A stretch of DNA of 64,000 nucleotides from Trichocoleus sp. FACHB-46. GTDB lineage: Bacteria > Cyanobacteriota > Cyanobacteriia > FACHB-46. The notes under the pieces were generated by a model, which did not search any database, was not told the DNA's origin, and saw nothing but the letters and a program-made list of their open reading frames with translations. The position numbers and the translations under genes are program-made. Shown here piece by piece: positions 30,065-36,306 of this stretch (positions within the stretch are counted from its first letter, which is position 1; each line of letters opens with the position of its first letter). The DNA lies in NCBI RefSeq assembly GCF_014695385.1, contig NZ_JACJOD010000013.1, forward strand, positions 186,001 through 250,000, given 5' to 3'.

Positions 30065-30546
30065 GGAAGATTTGGATTGGCACTGCCAATTTCAACGGAA
30101 TTGAAAAATTTCAAGGAGCTACGCATCACAGTTCGTTAAAGTGCGATCGCAGGTAAGCTCCATAGGAATTTTAGCTCGGTTAAGCCTTCTGGCCACGTCC
30201 ATCCCTGAGGCCTGTCGAACACTTGAATTTTTAACTGCTAATGCTGTGTTCAGGCAAGGTATACGGTGCACTTCAGAAATTGGCTGAGTTGCTCTTGTAG
30301 TCTTGCTATAAATTCTCAGCATTGTTTTCAGTATTAAGGGTGTCTATTCTGTCACTTGCTCGGCATCAGTCTTAGGAGACAGCTTCAAAGGTAAGGCTTG
30401 CGAGTTTAACGTCTGGAAATCATGACTTAAGACACATCGGTAAGTGACACACGGATAGAGCAACAATTGCGGCCAACTGGATATCGTGAGTCTACAAGCC
30501 CAAAGATACAAGCCCAGAGATACGGTCACTGATTCAGGAGAAGAGT
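30065..30546. other. divergent spacer of 482 bp
   Basis: No gene-like frame on either strand has convincing composition. The only regular structure seen is the 14-bp tandem duplication at 30494-30521, annotated separately. Promoters for the two divergent genes must lie here. Confidence 0.4.
30494..30521. repeat. 14-bp tandem repeat upstream of the TPR gene
   Basis: ACAAGCCCAAAGAT (30494-30507) is immediately followed by ACAAGCCCAGAGAT (30508-30521), 13 of 14 bases identical, within the leader of the TPR gene and 25 bases from its ATG. Confidence 0.45.
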
Positions 30547-31829: not shown

Positions 31830-31930
31830 ACGGAGTGGGGTGACGTAAAACCTTGAATGTGACGCACCTTTGCTACCCAGGCTCAATGGTAGGTTCAGAT
31901 CAACCAATTCCATAGCACCCAAAAGCTCCA

Positions 31931-32036
31931 ATTGGAGCCTATCTCAGCAGCAAAGCCTAGTTGCTATCAGACAATCTACACTAAATTTCTAAGATTGCCC
32001 GGAGGTTTTGACCCCACCCCTAAGATAGGCTCCAAT
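31931..32036. repeat. inverted repeat element between psaM and its downstream neighbour
   Basis: ATTGGAGCCTATCTCAG (31931-31947) and CTAAGATAGGCTCCAAT (32020-32036) are inverted copies matching at 16 of 17 positions with a 72-base spacer. The left arm is also part of a perfect 14-base palindrome GCTCCAATTGGAGC (31925-31938). A miniature inverted-repeat element or a bulky terminator for psaM are the main alternatives. Confidence 0.5.
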
Positions 32037-32052
32037 CGCTCAATTTGCGAGC

Positions 32053-32148
32053 TTACTTATACAGTTCGGTGGCTAACCGGAAAGCCATAATCCCTGGGAT
32101 CAAAGCAACGACTAGCGCAACGTAGACTTGGGTATCTGATATAGACAT
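32053..32148 (-). CDS. psaM: photosystem I reaction centre subunit XII
   Basis: This 31-residue frame (ATG complementary to 32146-32148) reads [20 protein letters not shown] and ends [11 protein letters not shown]. The SDTQVY start, single hydrophobic helix and FRLxTELYK end are diagnostic of PsaM, the small subunit at the photosystem I trimer interface. GGAG lies nine bases upstream of the start. It is too short for ordinary gene calling. A palindromic candidate operator lies 71-89 bases upstream. Confidence 0.96.
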
Positions 32149-32582
32149 GTTTGAAAACTCCATATTTTGAGGTTGCTAGTTCACCAATTTCGGCCAAATT
32201 CTTGGCTTCTGGAACAACTTGTTACATGATGTAACAAAAAATCAGCTAAAGCTGCGATCGCAGCCTGGTCTACTTCTAAGCATAGTTGAGGCTGCAAAAC
32301 CTAGCTCCAATTGGTTCTGCAACTAGTCGCAGGAGCACAGCCGATACACTTTCAACAAATAGTTCTGAATGAACAGTTAGGGCTGAAGAGAAACTGCATG
32401 CTTACAAATGCTGCTTATAGCGACCTGTAGCCAAAATGCTTTGATTTAGAGCGATCGGGACTACATCTTTCTAAGTTTTAGGTGGCTATACTTAAGCTAT
32501 TTCAATGAGATAAATCATCTTTGCAAAACTCGAAAGCCCCGCCTTCGAGGCGAAGTTTAATAAAATCTACATATTTTTAAGA
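32149..32582. other. divergent spacer between psaM and phoU
   Basis: 434 bases containing the psaM regulatory region (palindrome at 32219-32237) at the left and presumably the phoU promoter at the right. I find no repeated CTTAAC-type Pho box, only a single CTTAAGCT near 32492. No RNA gene recognised. Confidence 0.5.
32219..32237. promoter_or_regulatory. perfect palindrome of two opposed TTACAT half-sites upstream of psaM
   Basis: TTGTTACAT-G-ATGTAACAA is a perfect dyad with nine-base arms and a single central base. The half-site GTTACAT equals the half-site of HLR1, the RpaB-binding element of photosystem I genes, but HLR1 half-sites are normally direct repeats two bases apart; here they are inverted. 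Regulation of psaM by light is therefore plausible but inferred. Confidence 0.5.
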
Positions 32583-33254
32583 TTGGTAACTGTTTCGTTG
32601 GAAAGCCAAAGATCTGTCCGAACCCATTTCGATCGCCAGCTTAAACGCCTGCAACGGGACGTTCTACGCATGGGTGCCTTGGTAGAAAAATCCTGTCGCT
32701 TAGCGCGCCAAGCTTTATTTGAGCGGGATTTAGAAGCCGCTGAGCGGATCAGTCAGCAAGACAAACAGATTGATCAGCTCTACCGCCAAATAGAACTAGA
32801 TTGCGTCAGCATGATGGCACTACAAGCCCCTGTGACCCAGGACTTACGAATGATTAGTGCCTTAATGCAGTTGGTGCGAGACTTGGAGCGGATCGGCGAC
32901 TACGCTGAGGACTTGGGTGAAATTGCGGTTAAGTTGTTCCCTTACCCGATTCATCCCTGCATGGAGCGAGTGCAACTCATGCTAGACCGTTGCCAAGCTA
33001 TGCTCGCTATGAGTTTAGCTGCTTTGTCTGATCTAGATGCAGAGTCAGGTCTGGATTTGAAGACAAAGGACGACGCGGTCGATTCAGATTACCAAGATTT
33101 ATACGACCTCCTTGCACATCAAACTGATCTTCGAGGCGTCGTAGAGCCAACGGTTTTGTTAGTTTTGGTGATTCGTCACCTAGAACGAATGGCTGATCAC
33201 GCAACTAATATTGGCAAACGTGTCGCTTACATTGTGACTGGACAGCGTTATTAG
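32583..33254 (+). CDS. phoU: phosphate signalling complex protein PhoU
   Basis: This 223-residue helical protein shows two PhoU repeats, each with the metal-site pattern: DLRMISALMQLVRDLERIGD followed by YAEDLGEIA, and VLLVLVIRHLERMADHATNI. It starts at TTG; no ATG is available before the conserved HFDRQLKRL. PhoU links the Pst phosphate transporter to the histidine kinase and represses the Pho regulon when phosphate is plentiful. No pst genes lie in the window, so it stands apart from its usual partners. Confidence 0.95.
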   Translation: MVTVSLESQRSVRTHFDRQLKRLQRDVLRMGALVEKSCRLARQALFERDLEAAERISQQDKQIDQLYRQIELDCVSMMALQAPVTQDLRMISALMQLVRDLERIGDYAEDLGEIAVKLFPYPIHPCMERVQLMLDRCQAMLAMSLAALSDLDAESGLDLKTKDDAVDSDYQDLYDLLAHQTDLRGVVEPTVLLVLVIRHLERMADHATNIGKRVAYIVTGQRY

Positions 33255-33645
33255 GAACTGGACAAGGAATCACTTAGGACTGCCATAGTCTGATGAAAAA
33301 GAGTGTTTCTTGGTTCTAAAGACATAATTCTGATGAGAGATTTGGTGAATAGCGTTTGACAGGTTTACATTCAGTGCGAAAGTATTAAATAGAGTGTGTA
33401 CAGTGCCGAGGTAGACGCAATTAAAGCACTGGAACATTGTCAACCCGAATCTAGCGTTCGTTACTCCTGCCTCCTACAACGTCTCGATGTACTATGGCTG
33501 TCCTTTCATCTGGCTGGTAGCTCCAGAAACGTAACTCTAGAGCACTAATCAATGAAGAGATGGTATTCCCCAGACCCTGTCAAAAAGCAAGTTCGCGCTG
33601 TTGCGGCTGCTATGTCTAGGGCAGGATCGAGGTTCATCAGCTGTG

Positions 33646-33905
33646 GATGACCCAGGGCTTAGTAAATGCAAGGAGCTGAGTGACTGGCATACCTGAGCTG
33701 CAAGGCATGGGTTGGCGTGCGATGTAAGCTGTATTGCCTGTATAAATGCGAAGCGTTGTATTGATGCAGGTTTACAGCAAGTGACATCGTTAGGTGCCTA
33801 TTCGGAAACTCTATTGAGTTTTTGAAATTCAAAGCCCCTCCGGGGTTTTCGGATAGGTTCTAGGTAAATCGGGGATAACACAGGCTAAGCGATGCCTGGG
33901 TCATC
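33646..33905 (+). ncRNA. candidate structured RNA or leader upstream of the RNase II/R gene
   Basis: Three nested levels of complementarity are visible. Outer arms: GATGACCCAGGGCTTAG (33646-33662) against CTAAGC plus CCTGGGTCATC (33885-33905), 17 pairs with a four-base insertion. Inside: a long hairpin with CGATGT/ACATCG (33720-33725 with 33784-33789), GCTGTA/TACAGC (33728-33733 with 33773-33778), CCTG/CAGG (33737-33740 with 33767-33770) and an AATGC-GAA-GCGTT tip. Then a cloverleaf-like block at 33797-33857. It ends 52 bases before the RNase start codon. It may be a leader through which the exonuclease controls its own mRNA, or an independent small RNA. No known Rfam-type family recognised. 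Confidence 0.4.
33797..33857 (+). terminator. cloverleaf-like block with terminator-type hairpin
   Basis: The outer arms CCTATTCGGAAAC (33797-33809) and GTTTTCGGATAGG (33845-33857) pair except at two positions. Between them lie three small hairpins: AAACTC-TATT-GAGTTT, TTTGAA-A-TTCAAA (sharing bases with its neighbour) and AAAGCCCC-TCC-GGGGTTTT. The last is a typical intrinsic terminator on the plus strand and could attenuate transcription into the RNase gene. Confidence 0.45.
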
Positions 33906-33957
33906 ACAGCAAGGGTGAGAGAACCGAATCAACAGAAATTTAAGGACCTATCGCTAC

Positions 33958-36306
33958 ATGGAATTTTCGATCGCGGCACTGTTAGCAAATTTCGCGGATG
34001 ACAAACTGATCGCCCCTAAAGTCTTGGAAAAGAAGCTGAACTGCCAAGACGATGCGGGTCTGCGGAAGCTCCAAATTGCCTTAGATGCCCTGGAAAAGGT
34101 GGGCATTTTGGTAAAAGAGCGAGGCAAATACCGTCGGGTCTGGGAAGAAGGCGTCGTTGAGGGCAAACTGCGTTGCTCTAGCAAAGGGTTTTGCTTCGCG
34201 ATTCAAGATGAAGAAGGCGCAGAAGATATCTACGTCCGCGAGAGCCAACTCAGCAACGCTTGGAACGGCGATCGCGTCTTGGTCAGAGTCACCAAGGAAG
34301 GCAGCCGTCGTCGCAGCCCGGAAGGGGAAGTGCGGCTAATTTTAGAGCGGGCCAATAGCTCAGTGCTGGCGCGGGTAAAGCAATCGGAAAAAGGCTATCA
34401 AGCGGTGCCCCTAGACGATCGCTTGCTGTTTGAATTGCACTTAAAGATCAATGGAGTAGATCTAGAAGCCGCCCTGGATCATTTAGTTCATGTTGAGGTG
34501 CAGCGCTACCCCTTGGGACAGCAACCTCCCTTAGGAAAAGTGACGCAAGTTCTAGGCAGTGATGCTCAGTCAGCCGCAGATACCGATATTGTCAGCTGCA
34601 AGTACGATCTGCGTCGAGAGTTTCCCCCCGCAGTGCTGAAAGCTGCGGAAGCGCTACCTAAGAAGCTCAAAGCCGCTGACTTAAAACATCGCTTAGATCT
34701 CCGCGATCGCTTAGCCTTAGCCTTGAAAGCAGACAGCACCCAGCAACCTGTCGATGGTTGTGATGATGCCCTCACTTTGGAAAAGACCGAGGAGGGCAAC
34801 TGGCGCTTAGGGGTGCATATTGCAGATGTGTCTCACTATATCCAGGCTGGGTCACCGCTGGATATAGAAGCGCAAAGGCGGGGCATTTCAGTTTATTTGG
34901 GAGACGTGGTGCTACCGATGCTGCCCGATGCAGCGGCGCAGTTGTGCTGCCTAGTACCAGGACAAGATCGCCTTGCCATCTCCTTACTCTTTACCGTTAG
35001 TCCTGAAGGCCAAGTGGTTGAGTATGAGCTGCAACCCACTGTGCTCCAGGTGGACCATCAACTCAGTTATCAGCAAGTGCAGACAATTCTAGAGCGCCAG
35101 CAGCCGCAGTCTGAGTCGCTAGATAGCCAAACGGCGGCTTTTGTCGAGTCACTGCCTGATGGAGTCAGGGAGATGGTCGATCAATTGGCATTGCTCAGTC
35201 AGGCATTAAAAACCCAGCGTCGCCAGCGGGGTGCCTTTGAACTTAACTTGCCGCAAACCCGCTTCCACTACGACGACGAGGGAGCTTTAGGAGCAGTCAT
35301 CGTCTCCTCCGACCTCTCGGCGCGAGCGATGGTAGTAGAGTTTATGCTGCTAGCGAACCAAGTCGTAGCGGCCCATTTGCAAGCTCTGGGTGTACCTGGA
35401 ATTTATCGAGTGCATCCCACGCCCAATGTCGGTGAGGTGCAAGAACTCATGAAGCTCGTCAGCAACATGGGCATTAACTTGCGCTTGGAGCAGGAAGATA
35501 CAATTCAACCGCAAGACTACCAAAACTTTACTCAGCAGTTTGCGGAGTCGCGAGCCGAAAAGGTGCTCACTTATCTGCTGCTGTCTACGCTCAAGCCTGC
35601 CGTTTATACCACGCATCCCCGACCGCATTTTGGTTTGGCGCTAGAGCAGGGATACACTCACTTCACTTCTCCCATGCGGCGCTACCCAGACTTGTTGGTG
35701 CATCGGGTGCTACAGAGTGTATTTGAGCAAGGCCGCGATCGCCGTTCTACCCGTGCTAAGGACAGCGTCAACCTCCGAGACGGTTCTTGCTACGGCAAAA
35801 TTAACTGGAATGTGTTGCCCCCAGAATTGCACCAAGACCTGGAGAGCCATATTGCCACCATCGTCAACAACTTGAGCGAGCGGGAGAAAGTGGCACAAGA
35901 GGCGGAAGACGACTTAGAGGGTCTGAAAAAAGCTGGGTTCATGAAAGAACATACCGGCGAAATCTTCCAAGGCTTAATTACTGGGGTGCAATCCTACGGT
36001 TTCTTCGTCGAAATTGAAGATCTACTAGTCGAAGGTCTGGTACATGTCAGTTCCTTGAAGGATGACTGGTATGAGTACCGATCGCGGCAGCAGAAGCTAG
36101 TAGGTCGGAAGAACCGGAAGCAGTACCGTTTGGGCGATCGCGTGGAAGTCCAAGTGAAAAGCGTTGATTACTATCGCCAGCAAATTGACTTGATTGCTGT
36201 CGGTGGTGGTAGCGAAGCATCCGAAGATGACTCCGACGAACCCGGAAGCACTAACGCTGACCTGGGTTACGACGCTGACCCTGGTGCCCGTCATCTTGAA
36301 GAGTAA
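33958..36306 (+). CDS. RNase II/R family 3'-5' exoribonuclease
   Basis: This 782-residue protein has a winged-helix N-terminus (LLANFADDKLIAPKVLEKKL), a cold-shock/OB region (GFCFAIQDEEGAEDIYVRES), a central RNB domain (GVHIADVSHYIQAGSPLD, RRGISVYLGDVVLPMLP, THPRPHFGLALEQGYTHFTS, PMRRYPDLLVHR) and a C-terminal S1 domain (FQGLITGVQSYGFFVEIEDL). It degrades RNA processively from the 3' end. The acidic cluster normally read D-x5-D-x-D-D here is ADSTQQPVDGCDDAL, so two Asp residues appear shifted by one or two positions. An unusually long structured leader precedes it. A cyanobacterial VacB/RNase R-type enzyme is the best call. Confidence 0.93.
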   Translation: MEFSIAALLANFADDKLIAPKVLEKKLNCQDDAGLRKLQIALDALEKVGILVKERGKYRRVWEEGVVEGKLRCSSKGFCFAIQDEEGAEDIYVRESQLSNAWNGDRVLVRVTKEGSRRRSPEGEVRLILERANSSVLARVKQSEKGYQAVPLDDRLLFELHLKINGVDLEAALDHLVHVEVQRYPLGQQPPLGKVTQVLGSDAQSAADTDIVSCKYDLRREFPPAVLKAAEALPKKLKAADLKHRLDLRDRLALALKADSTQQPVDGCDDALTLEKTEEGNWRLGVHIADVSHYIQAGSPLDIEAQRRGISVYLGDVVLPMLPDAAAQLCCLVPGQDRLAISLLFTVSPEGQVVEYELQPTVLQVDHQLSYQQVQTILERQQPQSESLDSQTAAFVESLPDGVREMVDQLALLSQALKTQRRQRGAFELNLPQTRFHYDDEGALGAVIVSSDLSARAMVVEFMLLANQVVAAHLQALGVPGIYRVHPTPNVGEVQELMKLVSNMGINLRLEQEDTIQPQDYQNFTQQFAESRAEKVLTYLLLSTLKPAVYTTHPRPHFGLALEQGYTHFTSPMRRYPDLLVHRVLQSVFEQGRDRRSTRAKDSVNLRDGSCYGKINWNVLPPELHQDLESHIATIVNNLSEREKVAQEAEDDLEGLKKAGFMKEHTGEIFQGLITGVQSYGFFVEIEDLLVEGLVHVSSLKDDWYEYRSRQQKLVGRKNRKQYRLGDRVEVQVKSVDYYRQQIDLIAVGGGSEASEDDSDEPGSTNADLGYDADPGARHLEE

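Follow-up and report, generated by a model that had tools for sequence, protein, structure and literature searches.

A stable and constrained RNA domain directly upstream of zam in one cyanobacterial genus, probably part of the zam leader

The locus and its gene

In Trichocoleus sp. FACHB-46, the region between phoU (end at 33254) and an RNB-family gene (33958 to 36306) was described in a preliminary description as heavily structured RNA. The question is what this RNA is: an autoregulatory leader with an attenuator through which a ribonuclease controls its own message, a separate small RNA, or a mobile palindromic element. Positions refer to the window, the whole stretch of 64,000 nucleotides that was analyzed (contig NZ_JACJOD010000013.1, positions 186,001 to 250,000), and all features discussed lie on its plus strand.

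The downstream gene had been taken for an RNase II/R gene. Its 782-aa product does belong to the RNB family (Pfam OB_RNB, CSD2, RNB, and S1), but it is Zam, a protein with a degenerate active site, and not an ordinary RNase. The TIDGxDARDFDD-type motif is replaced by ALKADSTQQPVDGCDDA, in which two of four catalytic aspartates are missing. The first cold-shock domain (CSD1) retains Cys73 and Cys79, which are invariant in 13 aligned sequences. Their numbers are identical to those in Zam of PCC 7002, where the invariant redox pair C73 and C79 of CSD1 marks the protein (PMC9145284). The genome also contains a second, intact RNB gene, rnb, encoded by a 673-aa ORF (in L167) with the motif TIDDESTREIDDGVSLEY. 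The redox cysteines, the lost aspartates, and the separate intact rnb match the published marks, indicating that the gene is zam. Among named organisms, the closest relatives by Zam are Leptolyngbyaceae and Pantanalinema. The loss of nuclease activity in Zam proteins was inferred from sequence in the same study, in which purified Zam underwent a redox change and deletion of zam altered pigment synthesis, phycocyanin, and photosystem balance (PMC9145284). Judged from its active-site residues, the protein encoded in the window is probably catalytically dead as well.

Fold of the structured domain

When folded alone, the segment 33640 to 33912 reached -118.3 kcal/mol, compared with a mean of -82.2 for 200 dinucleotide shuffles (z -8.45), and none of the shuffles equaled it. 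This bears out the heavy structure originally proposed. The best 200-nt window within the region had a z of -7.3 on the sense strand versus -3.1 on the antisense strand. Excess folding was absent from the upstream half of the leader (33393 to 33640, z +0.5), and a fold of the whole leader kept all 100 of the 100 pairs of the structured block. In a coarse scan of the window (393 of 982 windows, plus strand, 30 shuffles each), the off-register windows over the block were not unique, with a z of -3.6, the fourth lowest.

The predicted domain is built on a continuous stem. P1 (13 pairs), whose 5' strand at 33640 to 33653 pairs with 33898 to 33910, is stacked on P3 (14 pairs), whose 5' strand at 33703 to 33719 pairs with 33881 to 33897. 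No unpaired base lies between their 3' strands, which run on from 33881 to 33910 and are 94.4% identical to the sister species over 33877 to 33912. P2 (33656 to 33699) is a predicted hairpin that branches off the 5' side, and P3 encloses P4 (33720 to 33789) and a right arm (33790 to 33863). P4 corresponds to the long imperfect hairpin already recognized in the preliminary description and has 27 pairs, several of which are broken in the sister species; the right arm adopts another fold there. Common to the minimum free energy (MFE) structures of all three species examined are the P1/P3 stem, with its 13 and 14 pairs, and side hairpins.

A 17-pair outer match joining 33646 to 33662 with 33885 to 33905, also noted earlier, can be drawn as 11 pairs, a 4-nt bulge, and 6 pairs and competes with P2 and P3. 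In the window, this is a minor conformer of about 13%, with an energy 0.7 kcal/mol less favorable than the MFE, and in each of the two sister species the gap widens to about 9.5 kcal/mol. A two-state switch based on this match was rejected: the two conformers are of nearly equal energy in the window, but the alternative is lost in the sister species. Sequestration of the Shine-Dalgarno sequence by AGGTTC at 33630 to 33635, as suggested by an alignment fold, was not supported by pair probabilities, which gave no conserved Shine-Dalgarno sequestration.

Conservation within the genus

The block is also present in two genomes of the same genus, at the same place and with 84% identity. The fold in a sister species was weaker (z -3.0), and none of 200 shuffles was as good. 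Identity to this species was 78.3% in the 5' part of the leader (33400 to 33639), in which excess folding was not seen, and 82.1% in the structured domain, compared with 61% at the third codon positions of zam and 49%, 52%, 65%, and 64% in four short nearby spacers. The flanks were the most conserved, with 97.3% identity in the promoter block (33326 to 33399) and 97.8% in the ribosome-binding region (33913 to 33957). By these identities, the leader of about 560 nt is under constraint.

Two longer spacers in the neighborhood were also 74 to 82% identical, so that the zam leader is not the only constrained spacer. The first, a 482-nt noncoding gap before a TPR gene (30065 to 30546), was 82% identical to the sister, equal to coding DNA, and had no Rfam match. 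The second, a 651-nt gap before phoU (31932 to 32582), was 74% identical, and the scan window starting at 31851 had a z of -3.9 in the coarse scan.

Among 48 substitutions, 13 pairs were broken versus 17.4 expected (P 0.056), and one double change was found versus 1.5 expected, in three sequences representing two lineages. Covariation cannot be claimed with so few relatives. Most of the broken pairs fall in P4 and the right arm. Both strands of P3 are almost invariant, which is neutral as evidence on pairing.

The structured block occurs once in its own genome, the remaining matches being chance hits of 15 to 33 nt. The mobile palindromic element suggested earlier was rejected on this single copy and on the orthologous position in all three species. 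The chance presence in the leader of a fossil palindromic or mobile element would account for arms that are exceptionally strong in the window species alone (z -8.5 versus -3.0 in a sister) and for the lack of a homologue outside the genus. However, the single copy, the identical position in the three species, and conservation above that of the short neighboring spacers make even such a fossil very unlikely.

No Rfam match was found in the window at the gathering threshold, and nothing credible appeared at a relaxed threshold. Rfam searches of 20 related loci gave no match, and a tRNA/tmRNA search found none. A hidden small gene in the leader is unlikely, as some indels relative to the sister species have lengths not divisible by three.

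Promoter block and zam leaders in other cyanobacteria

The promoter block carries TTTGACAG at 33355 to 33362, which places the previously reported -35-like TTGACA at 33356 to 33361. Despite conservation of the TTGACA, its distance from any -10 element is non-standard; thus, the exact -10 element and start site are left unassigned. The arrangement TTTGACAG-N11-12-TRCGRAA and its variants occur upstream of zam in about 30 other cyanobacteria, in which the zam start codon lies 160 to about 820 nt, mostly 330 to 610 nt, after the first base of the block. A comparison of leader lengths between zam and rnb, and gap lengths in general, were set aside as evidence, since the ORF cut-off probably passes over short genes in front of rnb. 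In its own genome, the block has a single match. At the other end of the leader, the structured domain ends 45 to 48 nt before the zam start codon; the earlier count of 52 bases from the last arm, ending at 33905, to the start codon (33958) was correct. The intervening ribosome-binding region contains AAGGA at 33942 to 33946, and AAGGA..TATCGCTAC-type sequences recur upstream of zam in other cyanobacteria.

The leaders of these other cyanobacteria share sequence with this one only at the promoter and ribosome-binding ends. Convincing copies of the structured block outside the genus were found neither by BLAST in 388 genomes nor with a covariance model in 145 genomes. One genome (G232) gave a 70-nt match to the block with an E value of 2e-5. 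In 33 other zam leaders, excess folding was slight, with a mean z of -0.9 versus -0.5 for the reverse complement. Alignment-shuffle tests detected structured stretches in zam-leader groups B and G, with z down to -5.3 and -4.4, respectively, and no architecture common to the structured groups was recognized. Conservation of the promoter block before zam, together with complete turnover of the leader behind it between lineages, shows the speed at which cyanobacterial leaders can diverge.

Two further patterns were observed in these leaders. The zam leaders of five loci (L033, L107, L108, L113, and L122) have in common a conserved hairpin, AACTTCCGAA..TTGAT..ATCAACTTCGGAGCTTC, with an alignment-shuffle z of -4.4. 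In Nodosilinea-type zam promoters (L058, L125, L130, and relatives), a second TTGACA precedes the TTTGACAG block by about 13 nt.

Nature of the transcript

Part of the right arm had been read as an intrinsic terminator. A consensus scan found none in the window or in the sister leader, and in particular none between the structured block and zam. The putative terminator consists of CCCC-UCC-GGGG followed by four U only. Sister species have a weaker version of this hairpin, and the MFE pairs its G run with other bases of the right arm. No intrinsic terminator by which a transcription attenuator could be recognized is detectable in the leader.

This result also bears on whether the block is an independent small RNA gene between phoU and zam, with zam transcribed from a start of its own further down. 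Such a gene would agree with the closed, autonomous fold of the block and with its constraint. However, with no terminator found in the window by the consensus scan, a small RNA would have no detectable 3' end. In addition, 240 nt of constrained, unstructured sequence lie between the conserved promoter block and the structured block, and a conserved ribosome-binding region follows directly. A small RNA gene is thus unlikely.

Regulation of a ribonuclease gene by its own product, which would cut or trim its leader with an attenuator inside, is known for other RNase genes and is indicated for Synechocystis rne, by RNase E. In Zam, two of the four catalytic aspartates are replaced, and nuclease loss has been inferred (PMC9145284). 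The lost aspartates together with the separate intact rnb make it unlikely that Zam cuts its own message, and no terminator was detected. This explanation is highly improbable for zam. From the original proposal of an autoregulatory RNase leader with an attenuator, the long structured leader of the downstream gene is retained, given the promoter block, the constrained stretch of about 560 nt, the conserved ribosome-binding region, and the same position in three species. Self-control by an RNase is not retained, because the active site of Zam is degenerate, and neither is the attenuator, as none is detectable.

The position of the block, its constraint, and the absence of a detectable terminator favor placing it in a 5' leader of zam mRNA. 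It is probably the 3' half of an untranslated leader of about 560 nt that is lineage specific and acts in cis. Against this reading, conservation of the leader sequence stops at the genus boundary, and most other zam leaders show little excess folding. Transcription would start at the conserved promoter block, near 33355 to 33400, and would run through the structured domain into zam, giving one transcript of leader and gene. The domain is predicted to fold by itself, with the stacked P1/P3 stem and side hairpins directly upstream of the ribosome-binding region, and may keep the sequence before the gene stable, bound by protein, or resistant to RNases. Most likely it would act in cis, on either translation or decay of zam mRNA, and thereby determine the amount of Zam; all of this regulation is inferred.

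Known leaders and possible ligands

In Synechocystis, the 583-nt 5' untranslated region of rne controls its gene, and RNase E cleaves a U-rich site there (PMC10989929). The zam leader resembles it as a long 5' untranslated region before a cyanobacterial RNA-decay gene. The two differ in that RNase E cleaves, whereas Zam is probably nuclease dead, and in that the zam leader has a compact, multibranched duplex domain. In Escherichia coli, RNase E binds a stem-loop in the rne leader, according to Schuck et al. (2009) as cited in PMC7283877. Both are structured leaders upstream of RNA-processing genes, but the E. coli gene belongs to another family and is controlled by cleavage, and the zam leader has no Rfam match. 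The E. coli pnp leader forms a long duplex before an exonuclease gene, a possible substrate of RNase III. By analogy, the long duplex in the zam leader may be a substrate of RNase III, although the gene is a different one and Zam is without catalytic residues.

A more specific form of the cis-acting leader is that RNase III or RNase E acts on it and sets the half-life of the mRNA without Zam. The long stacked P1/P3 duplex, the one to three RNase III genes usual in cyanobacteria (PMC10989914), and the precedent of rne in Synechocystis agree with this form, while the genus-specific leader sequence counts against it. On balance, it is an alternative to be taken seriously, though a rather unlikely one.

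Within the leader reading, Zam itself is a candidate ligand, as an RNA-binding-type protein and not as a nuclease. Zam retains its RNA-binding domains, which makes binding to its own leader an attractive idea, and autoregulation of zam by such binding is plausible as a model. A fuller version, in which the nuclease-dead Zam with redox cysteines in an RNA-binding loop binds its leader and thereby couples Zam synthesis to the photosynthetic redox state, is speculative and quite unlikely. If true, it would mean that a dead RNase has been turned into a redox-dependent, leader-binding regulator. No report of any RNA target of Zam was found in the literature, and the strongly folded, constrained RNA directly before zam offers a concrete candidate ligand. 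What is found at this locus is a real, constrained, and unusually stable leader domain that is confined to one genus.

Other differences between the window and sister genomes

Two further features were observed away from the zam leader. One sister genome (G002) carries an insert of about 1.46 kb (L170:10931-12389), possibly an insertion sequence, at the point matching window position 30265/30266. Between 39076 and 41148, the window contains several mutually similar stretches (66 to 74% identity) that suggest duplicated genes whose copy number differs from that in the sister genome.
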